From an uncultured Ruminococcus sp. (lineage in GTDB: Bacteria; Bacillota; Clostridia; Oscillospirales; Acutalibacteraceae), in assembly GCA_905234015.1 (NCBI GenBank), contig CAJOFK010000027.1, positions 1 through 40,092 of the forward strand: DNA of 40,092 nt, written 5' to 3'. Of this stretch, positions 3,201-35,302 are shown in pieces. The position numbers and the translations under genes are program-made. The notes under the pieces are model-generated. The model had not been told where the DNA came from. It saw only the letters and a list, made by a program, of their open reading frames with translations, and did not search any database. Each line of letters opens with the position of its first letter. The first letter of the stretch is position 1.

Positions 3201-3399
3201 CCTTAAAGGTTGTGGACTCCTTGGTGTAATTAGCGCCGAGGTCATTTCCGTTGTAGCCGTAGTCGTTATCGAGCTGACGGGCGGCATTTGAGTAGGCGGT
3301 ATCGCCCGAGGCGGACTTAGCCGTTGCCGCGCTTGCCATTACAACTGATGACGCTATTAATACAGCGCAGAGTACGATTGACAAAATCTTTTTTGCCAT
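265..3399 (-). CDS. Secreted type I pullulanase (GH13_14) with dockerin and CBM26-like module
   Basis: This is a secreted debranching enzyme hydrolysing alpha-1,6 links of pullulan, amylopectin or limit dextrins. Residues 1-25 are a signal peptide (cut after ASA). A CBM48-like N-terminal domain spans about 50-160, followed by the GH13 barrel with the pullulanase signature NWGYDP (268-273), DVVYNHT (314-320), FRFD with nucleophile D384, WGEGW with acid/base E413, and CHDN with D510. The C-terminal part holds a MucBP-like repeat (about 716-783), a type I dockerin (about 791-848) with two calcium loops (D792/N794/D796/N800/D803 and D826/N828/D830/T834/D837), a second MucBP-like repeat (853-917), and a Trp/Tyr-rich module (922-1040) resembling CBM26. 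The dockerin implies attachment to a cohesin scaffold, as in Ruminococcus bromii amylosomes. An AAAGGAGG site lies 7 nt before the ATG. It starts 37 bp after the preceding pullulanase gene. The family call is firm; the CBM26 assignment is less so. Confidence 0.95.
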   Translation of the reverse strand: MAKKILSIVLCAVLIASSVVMASAATAKSASGDTAYSNAARQLDNDYGYNGNDLGANYTKESTTFKVWAPTASKITLNRFATGSDAEKGAQDLGKTELEKELKTPGDESTFTGIWKATVEGNLVNTYYTYTITAKNVTGSKETTKETADVYSIATGVNGKRSMVCDLSKTNPDGWDKDVHVVQDRSTQSSVWEIHVKDFSFDENSGVSDANRGKFLGFTETGTTLKNEGKVATCVDYLKDLGVTAVQINPFYDFGSIDEAAASSGAFNWGYDPVNYNVPEGSYSSNPYDGNVRIKECKAMIQALHNAGISVIMDVVYNHTFSTDSCFEYTVPNYYYHMKADGGFSNGSGCGNETASDNLMYRNYMIQSCLYWVNEYHIDGFRFDLMGLHDCETMNLIREEMDKVDSKLTIWGEGWTGGSANFPSTTCSGTPVKQAIQSNASALNERVAFFNDGIRDGIKGGVFQKTNTGWVQGTKGSYQSVTYGILANTKSGNWHAKQPSQCVTYASCHDNQTLWDRLADSQNLTDYFRKRHPLLVAESKLTGGILAMSQGVFFTLAGEEMGRSKDNDANSYKSSPDLNKIDWSLAKSNADIVSYYKGLLDIRKHFSPLTDDTNESQNGYLIYSGKDASYTYSAVWTNSTEGEWNKLAVLMNTDSKEATITLNEIGGNKDWVVIADDKQAGVKKLRESGSEFKLPAKSMIVAVDKASFDKVALKSDLGTVNVLAKNAVTGEVLDEYSITGKIGSSYSIAEPSVGKIYDVVGVDGSMDGTYTAEDQNVVISCGFYKPESVKKDINGDNAVNIGDVTFIQKIVAKKVTPTEAQTELADVNLDGEVTVEDATMLQKSLAKMSVGTGKVTVNYLENGSPYKVTASVTYEGRVGETYKLTPAKALGYAVDETKLPPAEVKIPYGEVEYNFYYNTASTDITIRVKHSGDKTWAPTLWIWGSSEGEDSSYNYSKVRTWPGGTFTDEDIVDGWYEYKFTASTNDDAYNIIVSDSGSPQSGDCKGFINNELWIVIDDSKDGINLVFYDVDPDKNPDAKPILET

Positions 3400-3436: not shown

Positions 3437-6256
3437 TTATGAAATATCCAAGCTCTGCATAAGAGCCTTTTTCCTGCGTTTATAATACAGCACTCCGAGC
3501 GCCGCCGCCAGCGCGAGTATAACCGGTACGGCTATTAAAAGCGTTCCCGAAAATCCCGAGGGAGTGTATATATACAGCACGGTCTGCTCCGCCGCCGAAA
3601 ACTCTCCCGTATTGTTATCGGGAATTTTTGAGAGCTTATAGTTCTCAAACTCAATATTTTCGGTCTGATAGGGCGTTCCGTTATCGCCGGTCTGTGAATC
3701 GGTAGAAAGAATCTTACCGTCGTCCGCCATATAGATTATGTTGATACGGCAGGCGGTATCGTCGGCGGTCTTTTTAATATAGCGGTAGTTCACCGTCTTA
3801 TCCTTATCCGAGAATACGCCGCAGCCGTTTTTCGGGAGCCTTTCGAGATTAAGGCTGTAGCCGTCAACGGCGGGGATATCCATAGTGCGGTAGGGCTGTC
3901 CCTTGCGGTTAGTCATAACGAGAGTATCGGTTATATTCTTCTCGGTTGAGTCATCAATAAAGTTAAAGGTAACGCTCGAATACGAGCCGTCGTATTTCTC
4001 GCAATAGAAATCGCAGTAACGAAGCTCCGAATTAAACTTGCCGGATTTGCCGTCTGATTTCTTGATATTATAATTCATAAGCACGCGGTTAAGCGGCTGA
4101 ACCTCGTAGGCGCTGCCCTTTTCACCGTTTATAACGTAGCTCATAAACACTTCGTTATTGCAGTGATAGCGCACCATAACCTTTCCGTTTTCAACCTTCG
4201 GGGAAATGCTTTCGTAGGCGTCCTTATCGACCAGTATCGCGGCTGACTTGGCGGGGAGGTTCATTCCCGAGCTGACGTAACCGAGCTTTTCCATACCGGC
4301 GGTCTTATCGCTGCACAGCTGAACGTAGCTTCCGCCGAAGCTGACGTTCTGAGCCTTATCGCCGCTGTTAAACAGCACCACTACCCTCTTGTATTTAACG
4401 TCCCTGAAGGTGTACGCCAGTACGTCGCCGGGCATATTATCAAGAAATCTTATCCGGTCTGCCGTGCTTACGGAAGCGTCGGTAAAGCCGGGGATGTTCT
4501 TTCTTATTTCCATAAGTCCCTTGTAGTAATCGGAGACGTCGCCGAAGGTATAAACATCCTCCCAGTTAATCTTATTGCGCTTAACTCCGGACTTATAGCT
4601 GTTTTCGTCGCCGTCCTTACTGCGGCAAAGCTCCTCTCCCGCGAGGATAAAGCTTATGCCCTGAGATGTAAAGGTTACCGCGGCGGCAAGCTTATTCATC
4701 GCCGTTAAGTCCTCATAGCGTTTACGGTACTCTGCCTTTGAACCCTTTACCGATTTAACGAGCTTATCCCACAGGGTGAGGTTATCGTGGCAGGAGGCGT
4801 AGGTTACGCATTGAGACGGAGCCTTAGCCCAGCCCATCGTGCTGTCCGACTGAGCTATAATACCTGTTTTAAGGTTGGATTTATTATTTCCGGACTGAAT
4901 AAAGCCCGTATCGGTACCGGCTGTGCTGCCCTTAATGGCATCGCGGTACATATCGTCAAACGCGCCGATTCTTAAATCCAGCTTAGCGACGTTATCCTGA
5001 GTCGCGAGCACGGTGCCGCTGTCGGCGGAGGTATTGAGATTCCAAGCCTCGCCGTACATAATAAGCTTTTCGCCGCCCTCGAGCTTATCGAGAGACGCTC
5101 TTATTTTATTCATTGTACCGACGTCGTGAAGCCCCATAAGGTCGAAGCGGAAGCCGTCGATATGATATTCCTTCGCCCAGTAGGTTACGGAATCAACCAT
5201 AAACTTCCTAAACATCTTACGCTCGCTCGCGGTATCGTTTCCGCAGCCCGAGCCGTTCGAATAACTGCCGTCGGAATTTCTGCGGTAGTAGTAGTTGGGA
5301 ACGGTGAGGTTAAAAGGAGAATCCTTCCATTTCTGAGTATGATTATACACAACGTCCATAATAACGCCTATGCCGGCTTTATGGAGCGCCTGAATCATCT
5401 TTTTACATTCCTTGATACGAACCGCGCCCTTATACGGATTTGAGCTGTAGGAGCCCTCGGGGCAGTTGTAGTTAACCGGGTCATAGCCCCAGTTATATAC
5501 GGAATCCTTGCCGCTTTTATCGGTCTCGTCTATTGAGCCGAAATCATAAAACGGGTTAATCTGGACGTAATTCACGCCGAGCCTTTTAAGGTAGTCGACG
5601 CAGGTCGGCTCGTTTGAGGAAACGGAATCAACCGTAGTGCCCGTCTCGGTAAAGGCGAGATACTTTCCGCGGTTGCTTTTTGAAACACCGCTCGATTCGG
5701 AGGATGAAAAATCGCTTATCTGAACCTCCCATATTCTCGCGTCGGTCTGTTTATCAACGCTTATATGCCTGTCGTTTTCCCAGCCTTCAGGATTGGTCGA
5801 AGCCAAATCAACAACCATACTGCGCTTTCCGTTCACTCCGCATGCCTTAGCGTAAATATCGGAGGTTTCGTAGGATTTATTGCCCCTCGTAATAACGAAG
5901 GTATAGTAGATATTCTTTAAATCACCCGCAACGTGAACCGCCCATATTCCGGTGCGTTTATTTTTAGTCATCGGAGTGATTTTAACGTACTTTTTAGCAG
6001 TACAGGAACGGTAAAACTTAACCCTTACCGCGCGCGCAGAAGGCGCCCATACGCGGAATATGGTTACTCTCTTGCTGTAAATTGCTCCGAGCTCGCCGCT
6101 GAAGACGGTTTTATCGAGCTTTTTCGCGTAAGCCTCGTAATCCTTAGCGGCTGAAACAGACGGAGAAATACACATTCCGACCGAACAAATTATCAATATT
6201 AACAGTAAAGAAAATACACGTTTTAATGTCATATTATTATCCCGATTATAATTCAT
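3437..6256 (-). CDS. Membrane-anchored type I pullulanase (GH13_14) with MucBP repeats
   Basis: This is a paralogue of the downstream pullulanase, sharing its N-terminal CBM48-like region (about 50-150) and full GH13 motif set: NWGYDP (255-260), DVVYNHT (301-307), FRFD with nucleophile D372, YGEAW with acid/base E403, and CHDN with D491. It has no dockerin or CBM26-like module. Instead it carries MucBP-like beta repeats (about 690-752, 757-826, 836-897) and one transmembrane helix (about 904-924) followed by a basic KRRKK tail. No LPXTG motif precedes the helix, so membrane anchoring rather than sortase linkage is inferred. The signal peptide is around residues 9-37. Start choice is uncertain: the ATG at 6256 has only a weak AAAGAT site, and the internal ATG at 6232 gives a more typical signal peptide. 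It is the first gene of a two-gene operon. Confidence 0.93.
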   Translation of the reverse strand: MNYNRDNNMTLKRVFSLLLILIICSVGMCISPSVSAAKDYEAYAKKLDKTVFSGELGAIYSKRVTIFRVWAPSARAVRVKFYRSCTAKKYVKITPMTKNKRTGIWAVHVAGDLKNIYYTFVITRGNKSYETSDIYAKACGVNGKRSMVVDLASTNPEGWENDRHISVDKQTDARIWEVQISDFSSSESSGVSKSNRGKYLAFTETGTTVDSVSSNEPTCVDYLKRLGVNYVQINPFYDFGSIDETDKSGKDSVYNWGYDPVNYNCPEGSYSSNPYKGAVRIKECKKMIQALHKAGIGVIMDVVYNHTQKWKDSPFNLTVPNYYYRRNSDGSYSNGSGCGNDTASERKMFRKFMVDSVTYWAKEYHIDGFRFDLMGLHDVGTMNKIRASLDKLEGGEKLIMYGEAWNLNTSADSGTVLATQDNVAKLDLRIGAFDDMYRDAIKGSTAGTDTGFIQSGNNKSNLKTGIIAQSDSTMGWAKAPSQCVTYASCHDNLTLWDKLVKSVKGSKAEYRKRYEDLTAMNKLAAAVTFTSQGISFILAGEELCRSKDGDENSYKSGVKRNKINWEDVYTFGDVSDYYKGLMEIRKNIPGFTDASVSTADRIRFLDNMPGDVLAYTFRDVKYKRVVVLFNSGDKAQNVSFGGSYVQLCSDKTAGMEKLGYVSSGMNLPAKSAAILVDKDAYESISPKVENGKVMVRYHCNNEVFMSYVINGEKGSAYEVQPLNRVLMNYNIKKSDGKSGKFNSELRYCDFYCEKYDGSYSSVTFNFIDDSTEKNITDTLVMTNRKGQPYRTMDIPAVDGYSLNLERLPKNGCGVFSDKDKTVNYRYIKKTADDTACRINIIYMADDGKILSTDSQTGDNGTPYQTENIEFENYKLSKIPDNNTGEFSAAEQTVLYIYTPSGFSGTLLIAVPVILALAAALGVLYYKRRKKALMQSLDIS

Positions 6257-14469: not shown

Positions 14470-15666
14470 TTAACTATTTATATCTTCAATTAATTTATCG
14501 ATTTTTTCCATATCTACGTCGCTTACGGGAGCGTCGGCGTGGAACTCTCGGGCTTCCTCGTTAGAAGCCACAACGCCCTCCTCAAAGTTCTCGACCTTAT
14601 CCTTTTCAACAAGAATAGCGTCGTCATCGCCCTCAGCCTCGGGAGCGACAACAAGATCCTCGGCGTCGCTTTTATCGCCGTAGCCGTACTCGTAGTCATA
14701 GTCCTCGGTATATTCCTCGTCAGCGGCGGTAACGTAGTTCTCGGACTCAACCGAGCCGTACGAATAATCGTAATCGTAATCGCCGGTCTGCTCCTCGGGA
14801 GCAACAACGGTATTATCCTGGAACGCTCCGTAAACTCTCTGCTCCTCGTCGAAATCGTCAAGGTCGTACTTTAAGAGCTGCTCATCTGAGGAATAGTTCT
14901 TTTTCGAAATCTCAAGGTTGAAGAAAACGATATAAAGTCCCATAGCGAAGAACGCGAAGGAAATAACGTTTTCGGAATAATCGAGACCGTTATAAATAAT
15001 CGAGAAGATGTTATAAACTCCGGAAGCGATACCGATAGCCGCAAGCGGGAAGCCGTATAAAAACAGCGACTTAACGGGATTTTTACCCTTAACCGTAGCT
15101 ATTACCATACCGAGCTTAAACAGGAAAATCATCGCGAAGGCGTAGCAGAAAAGCCTGAGCGGATTTATCGAGTAAATCGACATTGTGCGGTTATTCAAGA
15201 ATTCGTTGATAAGAATCAAGCCGCCCCAAACCGGCATAGTAAGGAAAAGCGCGCCCATTCTCGGCAGGAAGTTTCTTCCCTGCAAATGCGCAAGGGCAAT
15301 TATAACCATACAAATCGACGTCAGCATTCCGAATACGGTCATAGCGAGAGTAAACAGGTCGCTGCTTCCGTTCTGAAGCGCAAGAATCAGCGTCAGCGCC
15401 GATTTAGACGCAATCATTGCCGCCGATATCACTGCGAATACCGCGGCAGGAATATTCTTTGAAAGAATATACACCGGTGAGGTTTTCTTATCTATCGCGA
15501 CAAAAACGATATTTACGGCGAACATCGCGAGCACAAGCCCCACAACTATATAAGACGCAAAATTATCGTCAGCGCTGAAACCCACCGAATAAATCTGCAT
15601 AACCTTTACCGCCACTGCCGCCAAAGCAAGCGGGATAAAAGATATCCAACATAATTTAGATTTCAT
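14470..15666 (-). CDS. Eight-helix membrane protein with a long acidic cytosolic tail
   Basis: No family was recognised. The 398-aa protein has about eight hydrophobic helices in residues 7-250 (roughly 7-27, 39-58, 71-90, 103-126, 135-155, 170-191, 200-222, 232-250). A tail of about 145 residues follows, dense in Asp, Glu and Tyr (for example GDYDYDYSYG and YTEDYDYEYGYGD), likely disordered. The helix count and short basic loops suggest the tail is cytoplasmic. The gene has its own consensus promoter (15714-15742) with an inverted repeat over the start region, and no clear terminator before the thrS promoter. The ribosome site is weak (GAAAGAAAG). Confidence 0.8.
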   Translation of the reverse strand: MKSKLCWISFIPLALAAVAVKVMQIYSVGFSADDNFASYIVVGLVLAMFAVNIVFVAIDKKTSPVYILSKNIPAAVFAVISAAMIASKSALTLILALQNGSSDLFTLAMTVFGMLTSICMVIIALAHLQGRNFLPRMGALFLTMPVWGGLILINEFLNNRTMSIYSINPLRLFCYAFAMIFLFKLGMVIATVKGKNPVKSLFLYGFPLAAIGIASGVYNIFSIIYNGLDYSENVISFAFFAMGLYIVFFNLEISKKNYSSDEQLLKYDLDDFDEEQRVYGAFQDNTVVAPEEQTGDYDYDYSYGSVESENYVTAADEEYTEDYDYEYGYGDKSDAEDLVVAPEAEGDDDAILVEKDKVENFEEGVVASNEEAREFHADAPVSDVDMEKIDKLIEDINS

Positions 15667-17327: not shown

Positions 17328-17350
17328 TAGCAATACAATTTTAGAATATA

Positions 17351-17498
17351 AGCGAAATTGTCGCAAAGCGACAGCTAAATTGTTTCTTGCAAAACAGCTA
17401 AATTTTTCGGGTTTCCGAAAAGCTAAATTAAATTCGCTTCAGCGCGCCGCAGGCGCATTTAGCTCCGACAGGAATTTAGCTTGGCAGCGAATTTAGCT
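17351..17498. repeat. Array of small hairpins joined by AGCTAAATT linkers
   Basis: AGCTAAAT occurs at 17373, 17396 and 17421, with a variant AGCGAAATT at 17351, and its inverse ATTTAGCT at 17457, 17474 and 17491. The spacers between the direct copies are themselves inverted repeats: GTCGC/GCGAC, GTTT/AAAC, and TTTTCGG/CCGAAAA. The central GC-rich segment (17435-17456) separates direct from inverted copies, so a large nested cruciform is also possible. There is no coding potential. It lies between convergent genes at the far end of the polysaccharide operon. Confidence 0.65.
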
Positions 17499-17530
17499 GA
17501 GGCTGACCTTTTTTTCGGTCAGCCTCTTTT
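17499..17530. terminator. Terminator at the end of the polysaccharide cluster
   Basis: GAGGCTGACC (17499-17508) pairs with GGTCAGCCTC (17517-17526) over a T-rich loop. On the plus side it runs into TTTTCG; on the minus side it lies 9 bp after the aminotransferase stop but is followed by AGCTAAATT. It is probably used for the minus-strand operon and as a backstop for plus-strand transcription. Confidence 0.65.
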
Positions 17531-17535
17531 CGTTA

Positions 17536-18639
17536 TCATTTTTTACAGCTTAAAATCACATCGCAAATCCTGTCGACATCCTCAAGCGGTAAATCCGCGT
17601 ACAGCGGCAAGGTCAGAACTCTCTTAGCGACATGAAGCGCCGCAGGAGTTTTAAAAACGTCGTACTTTCCGTTAAACGCAGAGAATGTATTAGTAAGCGG
17701 ATAGAAATATTTTCTTGCGATTATATCGTTTTCGGCAAGCTTTGAGTAAACCTCGTTTCGGGTTGAGCCGAATTCCTTTTCCTCAAATACAGCCGGGAAA
17801 TAAGCGTAATTAGGCTTTACGTCGGGCTGAACTGAGTTGAGCTGGATACCCGCGGTTTTTTCAAGGCGCTCGGTATAACGCTCGACAACCCTTCTGCGCT
17901 TTTCGATTTCCTCGTCAAGATGGCGCAGGTTGCAAAGTCCCATAGCGGCGCAGAACTCGTTCATTTTAGCGTTAGCTCCTACCGCGCTTACCTCCTCGGG
18001 ACCGTGAATACCGAAGTTTTTAAGGTTGTAAAGCACCTTTCCGAGCCTTTCACTCTTAAAGGACACTGCTCCGCCCTCAATGCTGTTAAAAACCTTTGTG
18101 GCGTGGAAGCTGAAGCAGGAGGCGTCTCCGTAAGTGCCTATACCCTTTCCCTTATAAGTTTCGCCGAAGGTATGAGCCGCGTCGTAGATAACCTTAAGAT
18201 TATACTTTTCAGCTATTCTGTCAATCTCCTCGATGTTGCACACATTTCCGTAAACGTGCACAGGGAGTATCGCGCAGGTCTTATCGGTGATAAGACTCTC
18301 AAGCTTTTCAACGTCCATCGTGTAATTATACGGGTCGATATCGCAGAAAACAGGCTCAAGCCCGTTTCTGACGATAGCGTGAGTTGTGGACGCAAAGGTA
18401 AACGGCGTGGTGATAACCTCGCCCTGAAGATTCATCGCCTGCAGGGTAAGCTCAATCGCCATATGACCGTTGGTAAAAAGGTCGAGCTTCTCTACGCCGA
18501 GATAATCCTTAAGCACCGCCTGAAACTCCTTATGCTTAGGCCCCATATTGGTGAGCCAGTGGTTATCCCATATAGAACGTATTTCTTCGATATATTCGTC
18601 AAATTCGGGCATTGACGAACGTGTTACCATAATTGCCAT
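17536..18639 (-). CDS. DegT/DnrJ/EryC1/StrS aminotransferase
   Basis: This PLP-dependent sugar-type aminotransferase would move an amino group onto a nucleotide keto-sugar or a related keto substrate. The start is set at 18639 (MAIMVTRS) because AAAGGAG lies 8 nt upstream; the longer frame runs through a structured repeat. In 367-aa numbering TPFTFAST is the phosphate-proximal block, D153 in YDAAH contacts the pyridine nitrogen, and K182 in FSFHATKVF is the Schiff-base lysine followed by EGGA. Length and motifs are standard for the family. It is the last gene of the cluster, separated from the permease by 148 bp. The substrate cannot be read from sequence; 4-amino-4,6-dideoxy sugars are typical for relatives. 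Confidence 0.9.
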   Translation of the reverse strand: MAIMVTRSSMPEFDEYIEEIRSIWDNHWLTNMGPKHKEFQAVLKDYLGVEKLDLFTNGHMAIELTLQAMNLQGEVITTPFTFASTTHAIVRNGLEPVFCDIDPYNYTMDVEKLESLITDKTCAILPVHVYGNVCNIEEIDRIAEKYNLKVIYDAAHTFGETYKGKGIGTYGDASCFSFHATKVFNSIEGGAVSFKSERLGKVLYNLKNFGIHGPEEVSAVGANAKMNEFCAAMGLCNLRHLDEEIEKRRRVVERYTERLEKTAGIQLNSVQPDVKPNYAYFPAVFEEKEFGSTRNEVYSKLAENDIIARKYFYPLTNTFSAFNGKYDVFKTPAALHVAKRVLTLPLYADLPLEDVDRICDVILSCKK

Positions 18640-18658
18640 AAAAGGTTCTCCTTTACAA

Positions 18659-18729
18659 GAAAGCGTAACACCTAAGTGCGAAGCTTTCGTATATCCGTCG
18701 CTCGTGCGCACGCAGGGCGCAGCTGAGCG
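18659..18729. other. Two-hairpin structured element, diverged copy 3
   Basis: Hairpin 1 pairs GAAAGC (18659-18664) with GCTTTC (18683-18688). Hairpin 2 pairs CGCTC (18699-18703) with GAGCG (18725-18729) and TGCGC (18705-18709) with GCGCA (18717-18721), with the same 1-versus-3-nt bulge as the copies at 10706 and 10876. The closing pair T-A of those copies is C-G here. On the minus strand hairpin 1 ends 7 nt before the AAAGGAG ribosome site of the aminotransferase gene. Confidence 0.55.
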
Positions 18730-18748
18730 GGCGATACAAGTTTTTGTG

Positions 18749-18777
18749 CTTTATAAGGAACGCAGTTTCTTATAAAG
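18749..18777. terminator. Hairpin after the permease gene
   Basis: CTTTATAAG (18749-18757) and CTTATAAAG (18769-18777) make a 9-bp stem just past the permease stop. On the minus strand it is followed by CACAAAAAC rather than a U-tract, so it may attenuate or stabilise the mRNA end rather than terminate. Confidence 0.35.
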
Positions 18778-18787
18778 TGAATAAGGT

Positions 18788-20203
18788 TTATTCAACCTCC
18801 GTAATTCTTCCGAATTTATCTTTATACTTTAGCTTACAGAATACCGCGAACACAACGCCTATAAGCGCCCATCCGCCCGCAATTATCCATTCTTCCGTTG
18901 TAAGAGAGGCGCCGCTGCCGGGGATTAAAAACATCACTACTATAAACATCGACAAAAGCACCGCTGCTATACCGATAATCCTGTATCTTTTTATCTTATA
19001 AGGTCTCGGCATATCGGGGAATTTTTTTCTTATAATCAGGAAGGATATCGCCACCATACAGTAAGCAATACAGCACGCAAAGCTCGCCGAATCGGAAACC
19101 CAGATAAGCATTTTTCTGCCGAAAAGCGGAGAAATTGCCGAAAGTCCGCCGATAAGAAGCAGAGCGTTCACGGGGGTTTTATGCTTTTTATGAAGCTTCG
19201 AGAACTTATGAGGAATCATATACGCCTCCGCCATAGAGAACAGCGCGCGGCTTCCTCCGATAAGGAAGGAGTTCCAGCTCGTAACAATACCGCAAAGTCC
19301 GCCGATAATAAGCACCTTAGCCATAATATCGCTTGAGAACACCTTAGCCATAGCCTCGGCGGTAACAAGTCCCGAAGCCTCGGCGGAAGCCTTAACCTCC
19401 GAGGCGCTCATCGCGTAGCCTACCGCCAGTACAACAAGCGCGTAGAACGCTACCGCGAGCACAATACTGAGAATAAGAATTCTTCCGAGCTTTTTAAGCG
19501 GAACGTTAATCTCCTCAGCAGCCTGAGGAATAACGTCAAAGCCCATCATAAAGAACGGAGCGATAACCGCAACCGACATAATATTCTTAAGGATATCGCC
19601 GCCGTTTTCGCCGATTATACCCTGACTCATAAGGTTCGAGGGCGAACCCCTGAGAGCAGATACCGCAACGAGGAGTATTCCCACTCCGGCGATAACAAAG
19701 GTAAGAATCGTCTGTAAGATTGCCGCGGATTTAACTCCGCGAATATTAATAAAGGTTATAAACGCCGCGAAGGCTACCGCAACAGCGAGCCACGAAGCGT
19801 AAACGTCAAAGCCCGCAATCGTATATAAGTATCCCTGAAGAAAATCGGGAAAAATATACGAAATAATAGTCGGCAGAGAGCACGCCTCAAAGCACACTAC
19901 TCCGATATAGCTTAAAATAATCGCCCATGTACAAACAAACGAGCCCGCGGGACCCATAGCTCTGTAGCTGAAAACATGCTCGCCGCCGCATTTCGGCATA
20001 GCAGTCGTAAGCTCCGCGTAAGTCATTCCGACGAAATAAATCATTATTCCGCCGATAACGAATCCGAGTGCCGTTCCGATTGCGCCTGCGTTGCTTATCC
20101 ACTCGCCGGTGGAAACAACCCAGCCCCAGCCGATCATCGCTCCGAACGCCGTAACAAGTACGTCGCCGGCGTTTAATACTCTTTTAAATTTTTGTTCCTT
20201 CAT
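18788..20203 (-). CDS. APC-family amino acid permease
   Basis: This is an inner-membrane transporter of the amino acid-polyamine-organocation family, 471 aa with about 12 hydrophobic segments. The first helix carries AFGAMIGWGWVVSTG, matching the unwound G-rich TM1 substrate site, and the family block ELTTAMPKCGGEHVFSYRA follows TM2. The middle helix FFMMGFDVIPQAAEEI corresponds to the TM6 region with the conserved GxDxxxxxAEE. The substrate is likely an amino acid or amine; direction (uptake or exchange) cannot be read. A GGAGGT site lies 3-4 nt before the ATG. It lies 51 bp after the ornithine cyclodeaminase-family gene, suggesting that the two handle the same metabolite. Confidence 0.92.
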   Translation of the reverse strand: MKEQKFKRVLNAGDVLVTAFGAMIGWGWVVSTGEWISNAGAIGTALGFVIGGIMIYFVGMTYAELTTAMPKCGGEHVFSYRAMGPAGSFVCTWAIILSYIGVVCFEACSLPTIISYIFPDFLQGYLYTIAGFDVYASWLAVAVAFAAFITFINIRGVKSAAILQTILTFVIAGVGILLVAVSALRGSPSNLMSQGIIGENGGDILKNIMSVAVIAPFFMMGFDVIPQAAEEINVPLKKLGRILILSIVLAVAFYALVVLAVGYAMSASEVKASAEASGLVTAEAMAKVFSSDIMAKVLIIGGLCGIVTSWNSFLIGGSRALFSMAEAYMIPHKFSKLHKKHKTPVNALLLIGGLSAISPLFGRKMLIWVSDSASFACCIAYCMVAISFLIIRKKFPDMPRPYKIKRYRIIGIAAVLLSMFIVVMFLIPGSGASLTTEEWIIAGGWALIGVVFAVFCKLKYKDKFGRITEVE

Positions 20204-20254
20204 ATTACCTCCATAAATTACCCAAACCGCATAGCGGAAAGATTACCTAAGGGC

Positions 20255-21376
20255 TTAAAGCGCTGAGCTGTCCCAGAGCTTTAAGGTTGTACCGATGTTG
20301 CCCTTTTTAGCGTTGTTATAAACATCAAAGCCCCAGGCAACGTCCTCAATCGGCATTCCTCCTACCGCGTAAAGAATAATCTGATCATCGCTGTCGCGTC
20401 CGGTTTTTTCCCGGCAGATAATCTCGCCCAAATCGGTTATATCCTCACGCTTAATCTTCCCCTCGGTAACGGCATCATAAAATCCCATTCCGAGAAGTGT
20501 TGATACGTTCTTCTGAGTCGGGAGAGGATTACCCGTACCCCAGCCGTCGTACATCCTGTAATTATCGGATACGAGCTTAACCTCCGGTAAAGAAAGAAAC
20601 TCAGTATCGACAAGAAGCGCCGAAGCGCTGATTACGAGCGCGCCGTTTTTAAGCCACTCGCGCTTAACGCGGGGATTGTCCTCGAATTTTTCCGCGTTGG
20701 TAGTGCCGTAGAACACTATATCCGAGTCCCTGCACGCGTCCTCTATACTATCGCATACAACGTAATTTTTTATATTTTCAAATTCAGCACGGCAGTATTC
20801 AATAAAGCCTTTAACGCCGCGTTCGCTCCTGCCCTTAATCTTAACTGTATCAATACCGGGGCAAGCCTCAACAAAGCTCTTTAAGGTATATCGGCTCATA
20901 ACTCCGGGGCCGATAATCGAAACTGTTTTCGTGTCCTTTTTCGCAAGGTACCTCGCACCTACTCCGGAAACGGCTCCGGTTCTCATCGCGCTTAAAATAT
21001 TAGCGGACATATACGAAACCGGTGCGCCGGTATCGGCGTCAAGCAGCGACATCATAAGAATTGAACGCGGGAGTCCCTTATCCTTATTATCGGGATTTGA
21101 GCCGTAAGTCTTAATTCCGAAGGAATGGAAACGTCCTCCGAGATACGCGGGCATAGCCATAAACCTGTAATCGGGCTTATGAGTAGGCATCCCCTCAACA
21201 TTGCTCTCCTTAGGGAAAGCAACTCGTATACCGTGCTCGTTAGCGTCCTCGCCGCCCATCCGGTAATCCTGCTTATTAAGCAGTACGAACACATCCTCCA
21301 TAGAGTCCATACAGCTCTTCATATCGCGGACGCCCGCTTTTATCATATCTTCTTCGTTTAAGTAAAGTAATTCCAT
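20255..21376 (-). CDS. Ornithine cyclodeaminase/mu-crystallin family protein
   Basis: This is an NAD(P)-binding enzyme of the OCD/mu-crystallin superfamily, 373 aa. K89 in FGIKTYGSNPDNKDKGLP sits at the family's substrate lysine, MRTGAVSGVGARYLA (131-145) is the conserved helix, and IIGPGVMSRYTLKSF (154-168) is the Rossmann dinucleotide loop. Members convert ornithine to proline, reduce cyclic imines, or make opine-like N-carboxyalkyl amino acids such as the SbnB product. The exact reaction here is unknown. The conserved Asp usual in true ornithine cyclodeaminases was not confidently placed. A GGAGGGG site precedes the ATG. It lies between an ATP-grasp ligase (13 bp) and an amino-acid permease (51 bp), which favours an amino-acid-derived product. 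Confidence 0.85.
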   Translation of the reverse strand: MELLYLNEEDMIKAGVRDMKSCMDSMEDVFVLLNKQDYRMGGEDANEHGIRVAFPKESNVEGMPTHKPDYRFMAMPAYLGGRFHSFGIKTYGSNPDNKDKGLPRSILMMSLLDADTGAPVSYMSANILSAMRTGAVSGVGARYLAKKDTKTVSIIGPGVMSRYTLKSFVEACPGIDTVKIKGRSERGVKGFIEYCRAEFENIKNYVVCDSIEDACRDSDIVFYGTTNAEKFEDNPRVKREWLKNGALVISASALLVDTEFLSLPEVKLVSDNYRMYDGWGTGNPLPTQKNVSTLLGMGFYDAVTEGKIKREDITDLGEIICREKTGRDSDDQIILYAVGGMPIEDVAWGFDVYNNAKKGNIGTTLKLWDSSAL

Positions 21377-21389
21377 ATTCCCCTCCGTG

Positions 21390-22661
21390 TCAGCACTTAA
21401 TACGCTTCGGGTCTATAGGATCCCACAGCATATTATTGCCGTCTGTATCAAGTATTTCAACCGCGTTTTCAACCGCGGTAATCGTTTTTTTCAAAGCCTG
21501 AATATTTTCGCAGGCAATCAGTACATACGCGAAAACCTGAGCGGTTGTGCCCTTTGACATAAGCTTGTCCCCTGCTTTTTTAAGCTGACAGAACTCAACT
21601 ACACCGTCAATTTCAGAAGCCTTATCAACTCCGTTTATTGAGCCGATTATACCGGGCTTAAGCGCAAGCGTAAGTATAAACGAGCTTCCGTCAAAGAACG
21701 GGTTGCTCTTTTTAAGCTCGTTTTTATCCATTGAGCCCGTAAGCGAAAAGCGGATAAGCTCACGAACTTGGTTATAACCTGAAAAGCTCTCGATAAGCTT
21801 ATATGAGAAACCGCCGTTTAAACGATAACCTATTTCATGAATATAGAATCCGCCGTCCTCGTAAAAGCCCTGAACGAACACAAAACCGTTGTTCATATTA
21901 TTATCGGCGAAGAATTTAACCACGGAGGGATTCACCTTCTGAGTCCATTCCTTAAGTCTTGCGGAAGGAAGATACATTCCCTGTCCGACCGGAGCGATTG
22001 AGTCGTCGATAATATTAACGTAGCGGTCACCCATACCGGTGAGCACGGCTTCACCGCCGTCTATCATATAATAAGCGCTGAACTCATTATGGGCGTTCAT
22101 AAGCCTCTCGATAAGAAGCTCGCCGCACTTTGAGAAAGTAAAAGCTTTTTCACACAGGCTCTCGTAATCACCGCTGTTATAGCACTTAAAAACTCCTCTT
22201 GAGCCGCTGTTATCAACAGGCTTAATAACTACAGGAAACTTTATATCGCTTATATCCTTAAAATTATCGCGGTTAACCTTTTTCCACGGCACCACCGGAA
22301 GTCCGGATTTCTCGCACGCAAGTTTAAACTTATCCTTATTGATACTCATATCAATATTCTCAGCATTACCCCAGAAGCTGAGATTTGACTTACGGCAGAT
22401 TTCCTCCGCGTACGGCAGCAGCGAGTCTACATATCCTGTTATAAGTCCGTCTGCCTGCTCGTCCTTACAGAGCTTCACAACAGCGTCAACGTCCATAGCG
22501 TTAACCATAAAGCTCTTGTCGGCAAGCTTCTTCGCGGGTGAATCGGCGAGATAATCGGTAACGAGAACCGTAACCCCCATTTTTTGAGCTTCCTTTACAA
22601 TCTCGCAGGCAGGCTGAACGCCGCCTAAAAGCAGAAGCCTCTTACCCTTCAAATCGTTCAT
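21390..22661 (-). CDS. ATP-grasp ligase (second of two)
   Basis: This 423-aa ATP-grasp protein would join a carboxylate, through an acyl-phosphate, to an amine or similar nucleophile. An N-terminal preATP-grasp Rossmann-like domain (LLLLGGVQPACE at 9-20) is followed by the ATP-binding KPVDNSGSRGV loop (147-157), IERLM (184-188) and the metal-binding HEIGYRLNGG (275-284). The layout is that of the carbamoyl-phosphate synthase/biotin carboxylase-like and L-amino acid ligase group. It is a distant paralogue of the ATP-grasp protein at 23622-24821, with clearly different substrate-side sequence. AAGGAG lies 5 nt before the ATG; 9 bp separate it from the PLP protein gene upstream. Confidence 0.88.
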   Translation of the reverse strand: MNDLKGKRLLLLGGVQPACEIVKEAQKMGVTVLVTDYLADSPAKKLADKSFMVNAMDVDAVVKLCKDEQADGLITGYVDSLLPYAEEICRKSNLSFWGNAENIDMSINKDKFKLACEKSGLPVVPWKKVNRDNFKDISDIKFPVVIKPVDNSGSRGVFKCYNSGDYESLCEKAFTFSKCGELLIERLMNAHNEFSAYYMIDGGEAVLTGMGDRYVNIIDDSIAPVGQGMYLPSARLKEWTQKVNPSVVKFFADNNMNNGFVFVQGFYEDGGFYIHEIGYRLNGGFSYKLIESFSGYNQVRELIRFSLTGSMDKNELKKSNPFFDGSSFILTLALKPGIIGSINGVDKASEIDGVVEFCQLKKAGDKLMSKGTTAQVFAYVLIACENIQALKKTITAVENAVEILDTDGNNMLWDPIDPKRIKC

Positions 22662-22670
22662 AATTACTCC

Positions 22671-23618
22671 TTACTCCGTAAAATTCCTGATTTTATTGAC
22701 GATATACTCCATATCGTCCGCGGTATAACGCTGGTCTGTCGGAATCGGCAGAATATCCGACGCCATACCGTACTCCGTATCGTCCTCGCCGCAGCTTTCA
22801 AAAACATACGGCCACAACGTCGGAATATATATCTTAATTTCCTGAAGCTGTTTTCTAAGTTTTCTTCCGTTATCGACGTACAGCGGATACATAAACGCTC
22901 CCTCGGGAAGCTTTAAGCTCAGCTTATTAATACCCTTTAAGGCGTTATGAAGATACTTAAAATTTTCGGTACGTCTTTTTTTAACGAAATCATAATCTAT
23001 CCCTCTTAAAAGGTTTTCGGTAAGCAGGGACATTTTTTTAACGGGCTCATTCTTAAAAAGCCTGTTGTTATCGGCGTATTCTCCGTAGAACTCGGACGCG
23101 GTGCGCTCGAATCTTCCGAGCAGAAAATTCATCCGCTTATAGCTTTCGTCAAGCCCGGGCTTTATATCCGAAACGGCGTCGGTATAAAGAAACGCGCCGT
23201 CCGTTACGCCGAAAAATTTACGGCAGGTATAAAGCGTATCCACTCCCTCAACGGGCATCTGAAAATACGCCTGCGCGTTATCGACGATAACTCTTTTGTA
23301 CTTCTCTTTAAACGCTTTTATTGTATCGTTATCAAGCCGGCCGTAATAGTTTACGAGATACAGCCAGTCGCCGCCGATATTCAAATCCACGGGAAGAAAA
23401 TCCTCCCCGATATGATACATTTCAACCTCAACATTTTCGCGCCTGCATACGTTTATAACAGAATCGCAAAGAAAATACGGAATAAAAATCTTTTTTATCT
23501 TCTTAGCTTTAATAAGGTACGCAAGGCAGTTTCGCCCGCAGTTAAGCGCGAGCGCGCCCTCGTGCAGCATATTTCCGTGAAAATGTTCAAGCTCAATATA
23601 TCCGCCTATTTCTCTCAT
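22671..23618 (-). CDS. Short DegT-like PLP-dependent protein
   Basis: This 315-aa protein has fold-type I aminotransferase motifs of the DegT type: IFIPYFLCDSV (44-54) in the substrate-site region, VDNAQAYF (112-119) with D113 for the pyridine nitrogen, and YTCRKFFGVTDGAFLY (130-145) with K134 as the likely Schiff-base lysine. It is shorter and more diverged than the DegT aminotransferase at 17536-18639. Its substrate is unknown. It lies between the two ATP-grasp ligase genes (3-bp and 9-bp gaps), so it very probably works with them. A GGAG site lies close to the ATG. Confidence 0.8.
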   Translation of the reverse strand: MREIGGYIELEHFHGNMLHEGALALNCGRNCLAYLIKAKKIKKIFIPYFLCDSVINVCRRENVEVEMYHIGEDFLPVDLNIGGDWLYLVNYYGRLDNDTIKAFKEKYKRVIVDNAQAYFQMPVEGVDTLYTCRKFFGVTDGAFLYTDAVSDIKPGLDESYKRMNFLLGRFERTASEFYGEYADNNRLFKNEPVKKMSLLTENLLRGIDYDFVKKRRTENFKYLHNALKGINKLSLKLPEGAFMYPLYVDNGRKLRKQLQEIKIYIPTLWPYVFESCGEDDTEYGMASDILPIPTDQRYTADDMEYIVNKIRNFTE

Positions 23619-23621
23619 AAC

Positions 23622-24821
23622 TTACTCCAGAATAACGTTAATCCACTTCTCCGAGTTATCCATCATATCGAGCATCTGCTCCATTGAGTCAAACCTCATT
23701 ATCAAAACTCCGAGGGTTGTATTCGCGCCGGTGAACGCCTTGATTCTGTCGCCCGGCTTGTTAAGAATATGATTCTCAACAATATGACTTTTACCCTCGT
23801 CGGTAATCTCAATCTCCTTAAGGATTCCGTCCTTAAGGCTGTGCACGGCGTAATACGCATAGAAGCCGTCAGGCTTAACCATCTCGCAATCAAGCTTTTC
23901 GCCCGCGGCGGCCCTTACGGAATACTCAACCAAGTCTATTCCCGTCGCGTAACGAATAATCTGAGGAATATAATTTCCGCCGTCACGCGGAGCAACCTCC
24001 ATTAAATAAACGTTGAAATCCTTATCAATTCTTATATCAAAATTATACGCCGTCGTTTTCATATCAAGCGCCGTGAGCAGACGCTGAATCTCAAAATGGA
24101 TTTTATCGTGAATTTCATCGGGCATATTGTACGGGAAGCTTGCGGCTATCGGAACGAACGGGTTAACGCACTTCGGGTTGAAATGGTCGTTTGCAAAGCA
24201 CCTGAAAACCAGCTTTCCGTCAACGGACAGTCCGTCGCCCGCAATCTGATATCCGTATTTTTCAACAAACTCCTCAATAATAATTTCCTTTTTCCTTGAG
24301 AAATCAAACGCCGATTTTATTTTATCCGCTGCATCGGCACAACTATCGATACGGCTGACGCCCTTACTTCCCGATGAATCAACAGGTTTTACGATAACCG
24401 GGAACTTAAAACAGCCGCCGCTTAAATCATTTACAGCCTCGCGGGGTGATGAGTAGCCCCTCGCCTTCGGTGTACAAAAACCATTTTCGGCAAGAAACTT
24501 ACGAAATTTATTTTTATCGCAAAGCAGGTCAACGGATTCATAGGGATTTGTCGGCAAGCCCATTTTTTCTGCGACATATGCCGCGGTAGGAGCCGCAGGG
24601 TCGGAAGCGTAAGCGAGAACGCCTTCAACCTTTTCCTTTAAGGCAACCTCTAAAACAGCGTCCTTATCGGTAGTGCTGACGAGGTAAAACTTATCCGCCG
24701 CGTGCTGCCCGGGATTATCGGTAAGAAAATCGCACAGCACGGTATAGTACCCGAGCTTTTTTGCGGTTTCTATAGCGACAACCTGCTGAGCCGAGCCGCC
24801 GAGCAAGAGTAATTTTTTCAT
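23622..24821 (-). CDS. ATP-grasp ligase (first of two)
   Basis: This 399-aa ATP-grasp protein has a preATP-grasp domain (KKLLLLGGSAQQVVAIETA, 2-20; DPAAPTAAYVAEKMGLP, 74-90), ATP loop KPVDSSGSKGV (145-155), IIEEFVE (181-187), N260/D262 and the metal-binding EVAPRDGGNY (275-284). The PRxGG form and the overall layout match the L-amino acid ligase and carbamoyl-phosphate synthase-like group, which couple ATP cleavage to amide formation. It overlaps the flippase gene by 4 bp (ATGA), the tightest link between the polysaccharide genes and the following tail, and suggests translational coupling. Its acceptor and donor are unknown; decoration of an amino sugar with an amino acid is one inference. 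Confidence 0.88.
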   Translation of the reverse strand: MKKLLLLGGSAQQVVAIETAKKLGYYTVLCDFLTDNPGQHAADKFYLVSTTDKDAVLEVALKEKVEGVLAYASDPAAPTAAYVAEKMGLPTNPYESVDLLCDKNKFRKFLAENGFCTPKARGYSSPREAVNDLSGGCFKFPVIVKPVDSSGSKGVSRIDSCADAADKIKSAFDFSRKKEIIIEEFVEKYGYQIAGDGLSVDGKLVFRCFANDHFNPKCVNPFVPIAASFPYNMPDEIHDKIHFEIQRLLTALDMKTTAYNFDIRIDKDFNVYLMEVAPRDGGNYIPQIIRYATGIDLVEYSVRAAAGEKLDCEMVKPDGFYAYYAVHSLKDGILKEIEITDEGKSHIVENHILNKPGDRIKAFTGANTTLGVLIMRFDSMEQMLDMMDNSEKWINVILE

Positions 24822-26281
24822 TCTTTTACTTTTCCTTTTTTCTTAAACTTAACGAGAAACGATTTTACGATTTCCATAACATACTCATATGACTCCAGCT
24901 TAAAGAACTTTGAGCCGAATATATAAATCGCTCCTCCGAGAATTACCTGAATCAAAAGCCTCAGTACCAGCGGAATCGGTATAAATCCTATGCCGTATAC
25001 ACAGGCGCCCATAAACACCGCTAAGCCGATTGCGGGAAGAATATCCCTTATCTGGTCAAAGTAACTGTAGCCGAGCAATTTTTTATTCGGCCATGAATTG
25101 ATAATCTGACTGAATACACTCTGAACAATCATACCATACGCCATAACAAGCACTCCGAACCAAATTGTTGAGAACATTATAGCAAGCCCGACAGCCTTCT
25201 TAATAATCTCAAGAATCAAGAACAAATCACTTCGTCCGACCGCCTTAATAGCGTTTAGGTTAGCGGTATGAATCGGATAAAACATATAGGTTACGCAGAA
25301 AATCTGTAAAAACGGCACACACGGCAGCCATTTATCGGTAAGAACAAGCGACACTACCGTATTCGCGCAAAACGCAAGTCCCATCATCAGCGGAGCCATA
25401 ATATACGTACTCACCCTGATTGAACGGCGCGTCATCAGCTTAACCTTTTCTTTATCATCCTGCTCCTTCGACATAGTCGGCAGCAGCACACTGTCAATCG
25501 AAATATTGATATTGTTAACTATGATATTAGGGAACTGGTTTCCCTGATTATAGTAAGCTAAATCCGACTTAGAGTAAAACTTACCTATTATAAGCTGGCG
25601 CAGGTTCGTATAAACCGTATCAATAAGCGACGAAACAAGCAGCTTCCAGCCGTACGAGAACAGCCCCTTAAGCCGCTTAAACGAGAACATCAGCTTAGGC
25701 CGCCATTTTACCGTAAACCACAGCACCGTAGTATCAATAGTGAGGTTTACGAGCTTCTGCGCTACAAGAGCCCATACTCCCGCGCCGAGCAGAGCGAGAA
25801 TTATTCCCGCCGCGGCAGACGCGAGCGTTCCGCCGAGCGTCGCCCAGAAGAACTTTTTAAACTGCATCGTCCTCGAGACATACGCCTGCTGGACATTTTT
25901 CAGCCCCGATACTACAACCATAAGGCACAGCACCCTGACTATAGCCGTTAAGGACGGGTCATTGTAGAAGGACGCGATAAGCGGCGCGCAGAAGAAGGTA
26001 ATAGCGTAAAGCACAAGGCACCACACCATATTGAAATAGAATACCGAGGAGAAATCGAGGTCGTCGGCGTTCTTTTTCTGAATAAGCGCGTTGCCGAGTC
26101 CGCTGTCTACAAAAACCTGAAGAATCTGCGTAAACACGAGTACAAGCGCAATAGTACCGTACGCCTTAGGCGCAAGTATTCTCGCCAGTACAATAGAAAC
26201 GATAAATTGTATTATCTGTGCTCCGCAGCGTTCCGCAAAGCGCCAGAAAAAATTAGTAACTACCGTTTGTTTATTTGCCAT
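24818..26281 (-). CDS. Wzx-type polysaccharide flippase
   Basis: This 487-aa polytopic membrane protein of the polysaccharide transporter branch of the MOP superfamily would flip undecaprenyl-linked repeat units across the membrane. The N-terminal block ANKQTVVTNFFWRFAERCGA and the PKAYGTIALVLVFTQILQ stretch are typical of WzxC-like members, as is SLIDTVYTNLRQLIIGKFYS in the middle. About 12-14 hydrophobic helices can be counted, with a basic C-terminus (KKKGKVKE). AAGGG precedes the ATG. The next gene downstream starts inside its stop codon. Confidence 0.92.
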   Translation of the reverse strand: MANKQTVVTNFFWRFAERCGAQIIQFIVSIVLARILAPKAYGTIALVLVFTQILQVFVDSGLGNALIQKKNADDLDFSSVFYFNMVWCLVLYAITFFCAPLIASFYNDPSLTAIVRVLCLMVVVSGLKNVQQAYVSRTMQFKKFFWATLGGTLASAAAGIILALLGAGVWALVAQKLVNLTIDTTVLWFTVKWRPKLMFSFKRLKGLFSYGWKLLVSSLIDTVYTNLRQLIIGKFYSKSDLAYYNQGNQFPNIIVNNINISIDSVLLPTMSKEQDDKEKVKLMTRRSIRVSTYIMAPLMMGLAFCANTVVSLVLTDKWLPCVPFLQIFCVTYMFYPIHTANLNAIKAVGRSDLFLILEIIKKAVGLAIMFSTIWFGVLVMAYGMIVQSVFSQIINSWPNKKLLGYSYFDQIRDILPAIGLAVFMGACVYGIGFIPIPLVLRLLIQVILGGAIYIFGSKFFKLESYEYVMEIVKSFLVKFKKKGKVKE

Positions 26282-33245: not shown

Positions 33246-34265
33246 TTATTTATTTCCGTACATCTTCTCGTAGTAATTCCGGTAATCGCCGCTGATAATC
33301 TCTTCCCACCATTCGCGGTTTTCGAGGTACCATTTTATAGTCTTTTTGATACCGTCCGCGAACTTTGTTTCAGGAAGCCAGCCGAGCTCATTATGGATTT
33401 TTGTCGGGTCGATAGCGTAACGCATATCGTGGCCTTTTCTGTCCGTAACGTAAGTGATAAGGCTCTCGGGCTTACCAAGCTCCTTGCAGATAAGCTTTAC
33501 GATATCAATATTCTTCATCTCGTTATGACCGCCGACATTATAAACCTCGCCTACCTTGCCTTCGTGAATAATGAGGTCGATAGCACGGCAGTGATCCTCA
33601 ACATACAGCCAGTCGCGCACGTTAATTCCCTCGCCGTATACGGGAAGCGGTTTATCGTTAAGCGCGTTCGCAATCATTAAGGGAATGAGCTTCTCGGGGA
33701 AATGATAGGGACCGTAGTTATTAGAGCATCTCGAAATAGTTACGGGAAGTCCGTAGGTTCTGTAATAAGCGAGAACCAGCAGATCCGCGCCCGCCTTTGA
33801 GCTGCTGTAGGGAGAGCTTGTGTGGATAGGAGTATCCTCGGTAAAGAACAGGTCGGGTCTGTCGAGCGGTAAATCACCGTAGACCTCGTCCGTACTTACC
33901 TGATGATATCTCTTTATACCGTACTTACGGCACGCGTCCATAAGCACCTCGGTACCGATAATGTTGGTTCTGAGGAAAATCTCGGGGTCCTCGATTGAGC
34001 GGTCAACGTGGCTTTCAGCCGCGAAGTTAACCACGATATCGGGCTTTTCCTCCTCAAAAAGCTTATCGACAGCCTCGCGGTCACAGATATCGGCCTTAAC
34101 GAACCTGAAGTTCGGGTTATCCATAACCGGCTTTAGGGTTGATAAATTACCCGCGTATGTAAGCTTATCAAGACAAATTATCCTGTAATCGGGATGTTGC
34201 TTTAACATATGAAATACAAAATTAGAGCCTATAAATCCTGCTCCGCCCGTAACAATAACAGTCAT
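33246..34265 (-). CDS. rmlB: dTDP-glucose 4,6-dehydratase
   Basis: It converts dTDP-glucose to dTDP-4-keto-6-deoxyglucose. The 339-aa extended SDR has GGAGFIG (7-13), the TDE catalytic motif (125-127), Y153/K157 in YSSSK, and the family block SRCSNNYGPYHFPEKLIPL. Its product also serves as precursor for 4-amino-4,6-dideoxy sugars, so the DegT aminotransferase at the end of the cluster could draw on it. It starts 18 bp after rmlA, with AAAGGTTAGGA before the ATG. Confidence 0.97.
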   Translation of the reverse strand: MTVIVTGGAGFIGSNFVFHMLKQHPDYRIICLDKLTYAGNLSTLKPVMDNPNFRFVKADICDREAVDKLFEEEKPDIVVNFAAESHVDRSIEDPEIFLRTNIIGTEVLMDACRKYGIKRYHQVSTDEVYGDLPLDRPDLFFTEDTPIHTSSPYSSSKAGADLLVLAYYRTYGLPVTISRCSNNYGPYHFPEKLIPLMIANALNDKPLPVYGEGINVRDWLYVEDHCRAIDLIIHEGKVGEVYNVGGHNEMKNIDIVKLICKELGKPESLITYVTDRKGHDMRYAIDPTKIHNELGWLPETKFADGIKKTIKWYLENREWWEEIISGDYRNYYEKMYGNK

Positions 34266-34283
34266 AATATCCTAACCTTTCTT

Positions 34284-35180
34284 TTAATGCAGTACATCAA
34301 GATATTTTCCGTCGACAACATCCTTAAGATACTGTCCGTACTGGTTCTTCTTTAATTCCTCGTAAACGGCGAGAATCTCATCCTTTGAAATCCATCCGTT
34401 GAGGTAAGCAATCTCCTCAAGGCAGGCTACCTTTCTGTGCTGATGGTTTTCAACCGTCTTTACGAAATTAGTAGCCTCAACAAGGCTCTCGTGAGTTCCG
34501 GTATCAAGCCAGGTAAAGCCCTGACCGAGAAGCTCAACGTTGAGCGCGCCTTTTTCGAGGTAAATTTTATTCAAGTCGGTAATCTCGAGCTCGCCTCTTT
34601 TTGAGGGCTTAAGATCCTTTGCGTATTTAACTACGTTATTGTCGTAGAAATAAAGACCGGTAACGCAGTAGTTGCTTTTGGGAGCCAAGGGCTTTTCCTC
34701 AATCGAAACAGCCTTTCCGTTCTCGTCAAACTCAACAATACCGAAGCGCTCGGGGTCGTCTACATAATAACCGAAAACAGTTGCGCCCTTGCCGCTTTCG
34801 GCATTCGCAACCGCCTGCTTAAGGCGCTTTTTCAAGCCGTGACCCGCAAAGATATTATCGCCGAGCACCATCGCGACGCTGTCAGTTCCGATAAATTCGG
34901 CGCCGATAATAAACGCCTGAGCCAGTCCGTCGGGAGAGGGCTGAACCTCATACGAAAGATTAACTCCGAACTGGTTGCCGCTGCCGAGGAGTTCTTTAAA
35001 TCTCGGAGTATCCTGCGGCGTTGAAATAATAAGAATATCACGGATGCCGGCGTTCATAAGCACGGACATCGGATAGTAAATCATAGGCTTATCGTAAATA
35101 GGTAAAAGCTGTTTTGATGTAACCTTTGTGAGCGGATAAAGTCTTGTGCCTGAACCGCCCGCTAAAATAATACCTTTCAT
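34284..35180 (-). CDS. rmlA: Glucose-1-phosphate thymidylyltransferase
   Basis: It makes dTDP-glucose from glucose-1-phosphate and dTTP, the entry step to dTDP-rhamnose. The start is set at 35180 ([18 protein letters not shown]), the family's normal start; nine more codons are open upstream. [11 protein letters not shown] is the nucleotide-binding loop, [18 protein letters not shown] the signature, and [13 protein letters not shown] AMVLGDNIF and EKP blocks follow. The length of 298 aa is typical. It is the first gene of the polysaccharide operon. The ribosome site (GGAAAGG) is about 14 nt away, longer than usual. Confidence 0.96.
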
Positions 35181-35302
35181 ATCAATCAAAAGCCTTTCCG
35201 CCCGCAACCGTAAGCATATCCGGGACCGCCTTTAAGCGGGCTTATTCAAGCGGCCTTTTAATCTCGCAATACGCCTATTTTAACATAAGCATAGCCTCTT
35301 AT
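35181..35302 (-). other. 5' leader of the polysaccharide operon
   Basis: About 115 nt separate the predicted transcription start (near 35296) from rmlA. The leader contains partly complementary GC-rich segments (GCCGCTTGAA and AAGCCCGCTTAAAGGCGG on the minus strand), but no recognised riboswitch, JUMPstart sequence or clear terminator. Between this leader and the DUF4003 terminator (35331-35443) only AT-rich sequence was seen. Confidence 0.4.

Follow-up and report, generated by a model that had tools for sequence, protein, structure and literature searches.

What is made by two ATP-grasp ligases set around a putative pyridoxal phosphate (PLP) enzyme at the end of a capsule operon? The question is raised by a block of six genes, A to F (positions 17536 to 24821), in a 40,092-nucleotide stretch of DNA from an uncultured Ruminococcus sp. 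(contig CAJOFK010000027.1 of assembly GCA_905234015.1), hereafter the window. The initial annotation treated the six genes as one module that builds an unusual amino acid or short peptide and joins it to a polysaccharide amino sugar. Attachment to an amino sugar is the reading that our analysis supports best. The single module did not survive: in related loci the six genes are scattered, and we rejected them as a unit. Just A and B, commonly with F, are widespread; F tracks rmlA and rmlB, and C-D-E belongs to a set of several interchangeable cassettes. On balance, we lean toward the view that the block decorates one capsule amino sugar with an amino-acid side group in two stages, using separately exchanged gene sets.

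All six open reading frames (ORFs) lie on the minus strand. Recomputation confirmed their positions and common direction, their gaps of 3 bp (A-B), 9 bp (B-C), 13 bp (C-D), 51 bp (D-E) and 148 bp (E-F, measured with F starting at the ATG at 18639), and the 4-bp overlap of A with the upstream gene for a wzx-type flippase. Hidden Markov models (HMMs) likewise bore out the families assigned to all genes except B. The core consists of A (23622..24821, 399 aa), an ATP-grasp ligase, and B (sPLP; 22671..23618, 315 aa), a short protein with a predicted DegT fold. The cassette comprises a second ATP-grasp ligase, C (21390..22661, 423 aa), an NAD-type dehydrogenase of the OCD/mu-crystallin family, D (20255..21376, 373 aa), and an APC-family amino acid permease, E (18788..20203, 471 aa; PF13520, 141.6 bits). 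F (17536..18639, 367 aa; PF01041, 321.3 bits) is a DesI-like DegT sugar aminotransferase.

We scanned genome contigs with an alignment of B and obtained 159 stretches, 106 of them encoding a relative, from which the best 80 loci were kept; their record titles include Ruminococcus, Lachnospiraceae, Blautia, Selenomonas, Treponema and Victivallales. In 62 of the 80, A is among the three genes that precede B. The same holds for either A or a WbqC-like protein in 70 of the 80 and in 49 of the 52 loci with 5 kb on both sides; one of the two is immediately upstream of B in 61 loci, 51 of them with 20 bp or less between the genes. The pair often sits between wzx and a DesI-like F, an F-like DegT gene being present in 45 of the 52 loci. 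Counted anywhere in the 80 loci, the gene clusters are A (63), F (61), wzx (46), second ATP-grasp (36), rmlA (27), rmlB (23), GNAT (18) and WbqC-like (9), the GNAT and WbqC clusters being named by Pfam from one member each.

The WbqC family (PF08889) replaces A before B in most of these nine loci. The same order, WbqC then B, stands beside a DegT gene 42-43% identical to F in Proteus mirabilis H63 and Cupriavidus metallidurans CH34. The Pfam text on the family reportedly suggests a glycine transferase. Unlike A, WbqC is not an ATP-grasp protein; an excerpt of PMC5532660 describes the family as functionally uncharacterised. B was absent from all 58 relatives of the source genome that were searched, 35 from its genus and 23 from its order, and the A-B core is thus not a conserved trait of the genus. 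To link B to an E. coli O-antigen, we used the Proteus wbqC-B-epimerase stretch in a distant DNA search, which gave no match. Two loci (L077 and L079) show a tandem doubling, with A, B, a second A-like ligase, a GNAT protein, a second B-like protein (27-28% identical to B) and DegT in that order. MT838042.1 (L161), a 5.8-kb record labelled bacteriophage and UNVERIFIED, carries wzx, WbqC, B, an epimerase and DegT; it is probably mislabelled bacterial DNA.

The position after B is variable. A second ATP-grasp gene follows within three genes in 34 of the 80 loci, and two ligases around one PLP protein, initially annotated as non-standard for a capsule, are therefore a recurrent arrangement. The other loci hold a GNAT gene and no second ATP-grasp (15), a hexapeptide acyltransferase with acyl-CoA-type genes (6), an NAD-dependent epimerase (4), nothing between B and F (7), or other genes or a contig edge (14); the GNAT label in eight loci and the label of all six hexapeptide/acyl-CoA loci were assigned by hand from the sequences. 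Cassettes with a second ATP-grasp gene can include a 2-hydroxyacid dehydrogenase, MmgE/PrpD, an aldo-keto reductase, a thiamine pyrophosphate enzyme or an importer, the importers being of the CitMHS (L014), DctM (L028 and control region L189) and APC types (L027, L032, L042 and the window). The acyl-CoA sets contain either mesaconyl-CoA-hydratase-like and CitE-like proteins or KAS III-like proteins. Recurring acid-building cassettes, with 2-hydroxyacid dehydrogenase and/or MmgE/PrpD and a protein of about 300 aa that has no Pfam match, occur in seven loci (L015, L019, L030, L035, L060, L062 and L190).

Slots are exchanged even between close relatives of the core. On the tree of A the slot type requires 20 changes, against a minimum possible of 4 and a mean of 23.3 when shuffled; some clustering remains, since just 2 of 200 shuffles gave 20 changes or fewer. 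Slots differ between L035 and L044 despite 93% identity in A and 86% in B, and between L020 and L022 despite 95% and 91%. The window and L013 also have different slots, at 83% (A), 67% (B) and 81% (F) identity.

To set these loci against regions picked without regard to B, we used control regions chosen solely by a wzx homologue, present in 25 of the 291 genomes searched in the class, the window's included. We sampled 20 of the 25 places besides the window's own, dropping four that lay at the end of a contig and one whose genome is fragmented. B occurred in four regions and A in the identical four, F-like DegT in 16, rmlA in 12 and rmlB in 11; 12 regions had F-like DegT without A-B. If the regions were independent, as related genomes are only in part, two sets of four would coincide completely with a chance of 1 in 4,845; two of the four positives repeat loci already in the set (L197 is L079, L199 is L077). 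The 80 related loci and this control thus show that A and B are not neighbours by mere chance.

Among the 16 control regions with F-like DegT, 13 had a recognisable ligase or acyl- or aminoacyl-transferase module. These are the A-B module (L188, L197, L199 and L205); a PylC-like ATP-grasp with GNAT (L189, and L191 with GNAT recognised by eye); a PALP enzyme with a PylC-like ATP-grasp (L204, and L192 with a fused GNAT); ATPgrasp_Ter (L195); a second ATP-grasp alone (L194); a PglD-like acyltransferase (L198, and L196 with KAS III in addition); and two Leu_Phe_trans proteins between wzx and DegT with three WbqC proteins after DegT (L200). No such module was seen in L203, L206 and L207, the latter two read by profile scan only. 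The control counts therefore indicate that the wzx-DegT-rml frame is common and that A-B is one of several fillings. In L192 (5245-6654) the PALP-family PLP enzyme fused to GNAT lies beside the PylC-like ATP-grasp, between wzx and DegT. In L200 (9585-11231, genome G239) the two Leu_Phe_trans proteins, of the leucyl/phenylalanyl-tRNA-protein transferase family, precede the sugar aminotransferase, and tRNA-dependent aminoacylation of a capsule sugar is possible there; none of the 80 B loci holds homologues of these two proteins.

Which reactions might the core perform? A and C score above the Pfam cut-offs for ATP-grasp domains (A: PF13535, 34.9 bits, and PF02786, 33.9 bits; C: PF02786, 23.1 bits, and PF07478, 28.4 bits) and are 25% identical to each other. 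For LAL_C2, the C-terminal domain of L-amino acid ligases, they reach 25.8 and 28.5 bits against a cut-off of 29.4. The PDB relatives of A include the L-amino acid ligase 3vot (E 2e-18). B, initially annotated as short and DegT-like, matches no Pfam or NCBIfam model at E <= 0.001, PF01041 included, and no PDB sequence even at E values up to 10; its DegT character appears in the predicted structure. All structural neighbours among the matches listed are DegT proteins, nearly all of them sugar aminotransferases. K134 and D113 of B align with K206 and D177 of F (the catalytic lysine and the PLP-binding aspartate) and are kept in at least 93% of the 80 homologues. The family of B homologues numbers 4,039. 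We found no report on the A-B pair or the B family in the open-access literature, a scope outside which most subscription papers fall. The A-B pair, the uncharacterised B family and the importer-bearing cassettes appear to be new here.

F begins at ATG 18639, with AAAGGAGAA just before it, within a longer ORF from a GTG at 18711. Its nearest solved structure is DesI (2po3, E 8e-56), and its best-scoring NCBIfam model is TIGR04427, at 304.2 bits short of the cut-off of 650. RmlA and RmlB (33246..35207, minus strand; Pfam NTP_transferase and GDP_Man_Dehyd/Epimerase) would provide dTDP-4-keto-6-deoxyglucose as the substrate of F. The window cluster thus brings together rmlA/rmlB, a sugar aminotransferase and an amide-forming enzyme, as a pathway to an N-aminoacylated 4-amino-4,6-dideoxysugar needs.

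The C-D-E trio lies downstream of A-B in two other loci, L032 (54%, 65% and 68% identical to C, D and E of the window) and L042 (69%, 72% and 64%), and in both D directly follows C. As these loci were found through B, the position after A-B is not an unbiased count. L027 has a copy of E at 67% identity and no D. Across eight overlapping genome sets (59, 391, 3, 397, 20, 297, 50 and 29 genomes, with strict E-value limits in those of 391, 397, 20, 297, 50 and 29, and with the genome of L071 outside them), D at 65% identity or more occurred only in the genomes of the window, L042 (G446) and L032 (G447). C-D-E is a rare cassette of a widespread modular system. In L042 (11029-11940) and L032 (11001-11900) a helix-turn-helix gene with weak nucleotidyltransferase similarity stands between B and C; it is absent from the window.

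D is closest to SbnB in sequence and in predicted structure. The title of the SbnB structure 4m54, the part of that source used here, names N-(amino-carboxyethyl)glutamate as the ligand. D resembles SbnB/CmnK, which act in 2,3-diaminopropionate formation, but it differs in reaching 152.9 bits against the SbnB-family cut-off of 326.9 (TIGR03944), and no SbnA-like (PALP) gene was found in the block. We considered a canonical ornithine cyclodeaminase and judged it less likely: SbnB, alanine dehydrogenase and imine reductases outrank the cyclodeaminases, by a small margin. The D alignment left out L042. D passes NF004848, "tyramine oxidase subunit B" (471.7 bits, cut-off 362), a name that occurred in no paper of the open-access literature searched. 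The name may be misleading, as members of this family (L138-L157) adjoin opine-dehydrogenase-like FAD and 2Fe-2S subunits. A homologue of this FAD protein (Pyr_redox_2) was found in 17 of 20 fetched regions around distant D relatives (47-54% identity), often with a permease as well, and two small neighbours are Fer2_4 proteins; the set matches the flavin-containing opine dehydrogenase in an excerpt of PMC4575208.

These observations can be assembled into a two-stage scheme, whose substrates and reactions we infer. In the first stage, RmlA, RmlB and F would yield dTDP-4-amino-4,6-dideoxyhexose, B would provide an amino acid, and ligase A would link the carboxyl of this amino acid to the sugar amine, spending ATP. 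In the second, permease E would import an amino acid and D would act on a C-N bond, forming an opine-like acid by reductive condensation with a keto acid or using related imine chemistry; ligase C would then couple the product to the free amine of the first residue. Elsewhere an acetyltransferase or an acyl-CoA route would stand in for C-D-E. The decorated sugar would join the repeat unit and exit via Wzx. The best reading is a modular N-aminoacylation system for a dTDP-4-amino-4,6-dideoxyhexose, in which A-B probably loads an amino acid and C-D-E probably adds a second residue that may, plausibly, be opine-like. N-aminoacylation is supported because an amino acid enzyme, an amide-forming enzyme and a cap recur beside wzx and a sugar aminotransferase, and the aminoacyl-tRNA-transferase homologues of L200 likewise favour it. 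A point against this scheme is L032, which has neither F-like DegT nor rmlA/rmlB within its 20 kb.

The same sugar could be the target under another division of labour, with B as a second sugar-modifying PLP enzyme, A loading a common amino acid such as glycine or alanine, and C-D-E both making and attaching the outer group. The structural neighbours of B and its retained lysine and aspartate positions fit this alternative. We nevertheless regard it as doubtful, as F already supplies one sugar aminotransferase, and in L192 and L204 a PLP enzyme of the PALP family, a type usual in amino acid chemistry, lies beside an ATP-grasp gene in the same region. That A and C instead amidate a uronic acid or another polysaccharide carboxyl seems unlikely to us. 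A capsule-amidating ATP-grasp domain is known, that of Campylobacter jejuni Cj1438, which acts on glucuronic acid (excerpt of PMC11800379), and six of the 80 loci have UDP-glucose-dehydrogenase-like genes (cluster 17, identified by eye), whereas 61 of the 80 have F-like DegT, and acyl- and aminoacyl-transferases make up the other fillings of the region.

The NF004848 score of D and the flavin opine-dehydrogenase subunit predicted near its distant relatives would suit a catabolic pair, D and E, that breaks down opines or amines and entered the capsule operon by accident. Yet no partner oxidase or dehydrogenase subunit of D, flavin or iron-sulphur, was found among the Pfam-scanned window proteins, the closer copies of D follow C directly, and the permeases next to the catabolic D relatives in L093 and L098 share just 24% identity with E; there is little reason to expect such a pair here. 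Least probable of all is the idea, also raised in the initial annotation, that the block yields a small diffusible peptide or opine and merely shares the operon. A and C do resemble amino acid ligases that produce free dipeptides, but the block has neither an exporter for such a product nor another natural-product gene, and A-B recurs by wzx and sugar genes; the contexts seen offer no support for it.

The preferred reading therefore remains N-aminoacylation of a capsule amino sugar, and A-B with its slots is a modular system that is both real and widespread and belongs to a known functional class. We put forward more tentatively that gut Clostridia use it for combinatorial surface chemistry, in which a constant A-B would load an amino acid onto a dTDP-4-amino sugar and a plug-in cassette, in some cases bringing an importer of its own, would cap it; the cap in the window would be an opine made from an amino acid that the cell scavenges, so that the capsule sugar would be dipeptide-like and opine-tagged, and B would represent a new enzyme family with thousands of members. 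Different genes in the same slot would let gut bacteria vary their coat, and exchange at a fixed place would directly give new surface antigens and phage receptors. If the reading is right, a different outer acyl group is expected in strains with near-identical A-B and unlike slots, such as those of L035 and L044. In that case a pathway would also be assigned to a large PLP family for which neither Pfam nor NCBIfam has a model, and there would be a gene-level key to predicting the non-sugar groups on surface polysaccharides of gut commensals.

The block forms the 3' end of a same-strand run of 17.7 kb (35207 to 17536). Upstream on that strand lie rmlA, rmlB, rmlD, rmlC, an EpsG-family gene, four glycosyltransferases (two GT4, two GT2) and wzx (24818..26281, minus strand; PF13440, 339.4 bits). 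rmlA, at 35207, is the first gene of the run and has a promoter-like site upstream, itself preceded by a terminator-like site. These sites are weak evidence for one transcript, because promoter-like sites are not enriched (28 found, mean of 27.7 in shuffles). Between F and the convergent gene, several AGCTAAATT-like motif copies occur at 17350-17526 and a strong hairpin at 17499-17526. Elsewhere in the window, a protein of 398 aa that matches no Pfam or NCBIfam model (14470-15666) adjoins a threonyl-tRNA-synthetase-like gene. Two large alpha-amylase/CBM48 proteins with MucBP domains (265-3399 and 3437-6256), the first with a type I dockerin, resemble ruminococcal starch-degrading complexes.

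Among known systems, Cj1438 shares with the scheme an ATP-grasp ligase that makes an amide on a capsule sugar; according to an excerpt of PMC11800379 it joins an amine to a sugar carboxyl, whereas here the sugar is predicted to supply the amine. Closer are the O-antigens with N-aminoacylated Qui4N, a 4-amino-4,6-dideoxysugar. An excerpt of PMC10609480 gives N-acetylglycyl, N-acetylallothreonyl (Vibrio cholerae O43) and 3-hydroxybutyryl-D-alanyl (E. coli O123) groups, and, in Providencia alcalifaciens O35, an N-(1-carboxyethyl)alanyl (opine) group. They share the capped aminoacyl or opine-like group that we predict here; they are Gram-negative, the excerpt describes no enzymes for their aminoacyl step, and none is tied to A-B here. 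In the Flavobacterium psychrophilum O-antigen, acyl-making genes are swapped on one fixed amino sugar, with antigenic differences (excerpt of PMC6519341). Its sugar is UDP-linked Qui2NAc4N and its groups are fatty-acyl, and that excerpt does not report the ATP-grasp/PLP pair; the LbH, KAS III and SDR slot type of our loci consists of the same kinds of genes.

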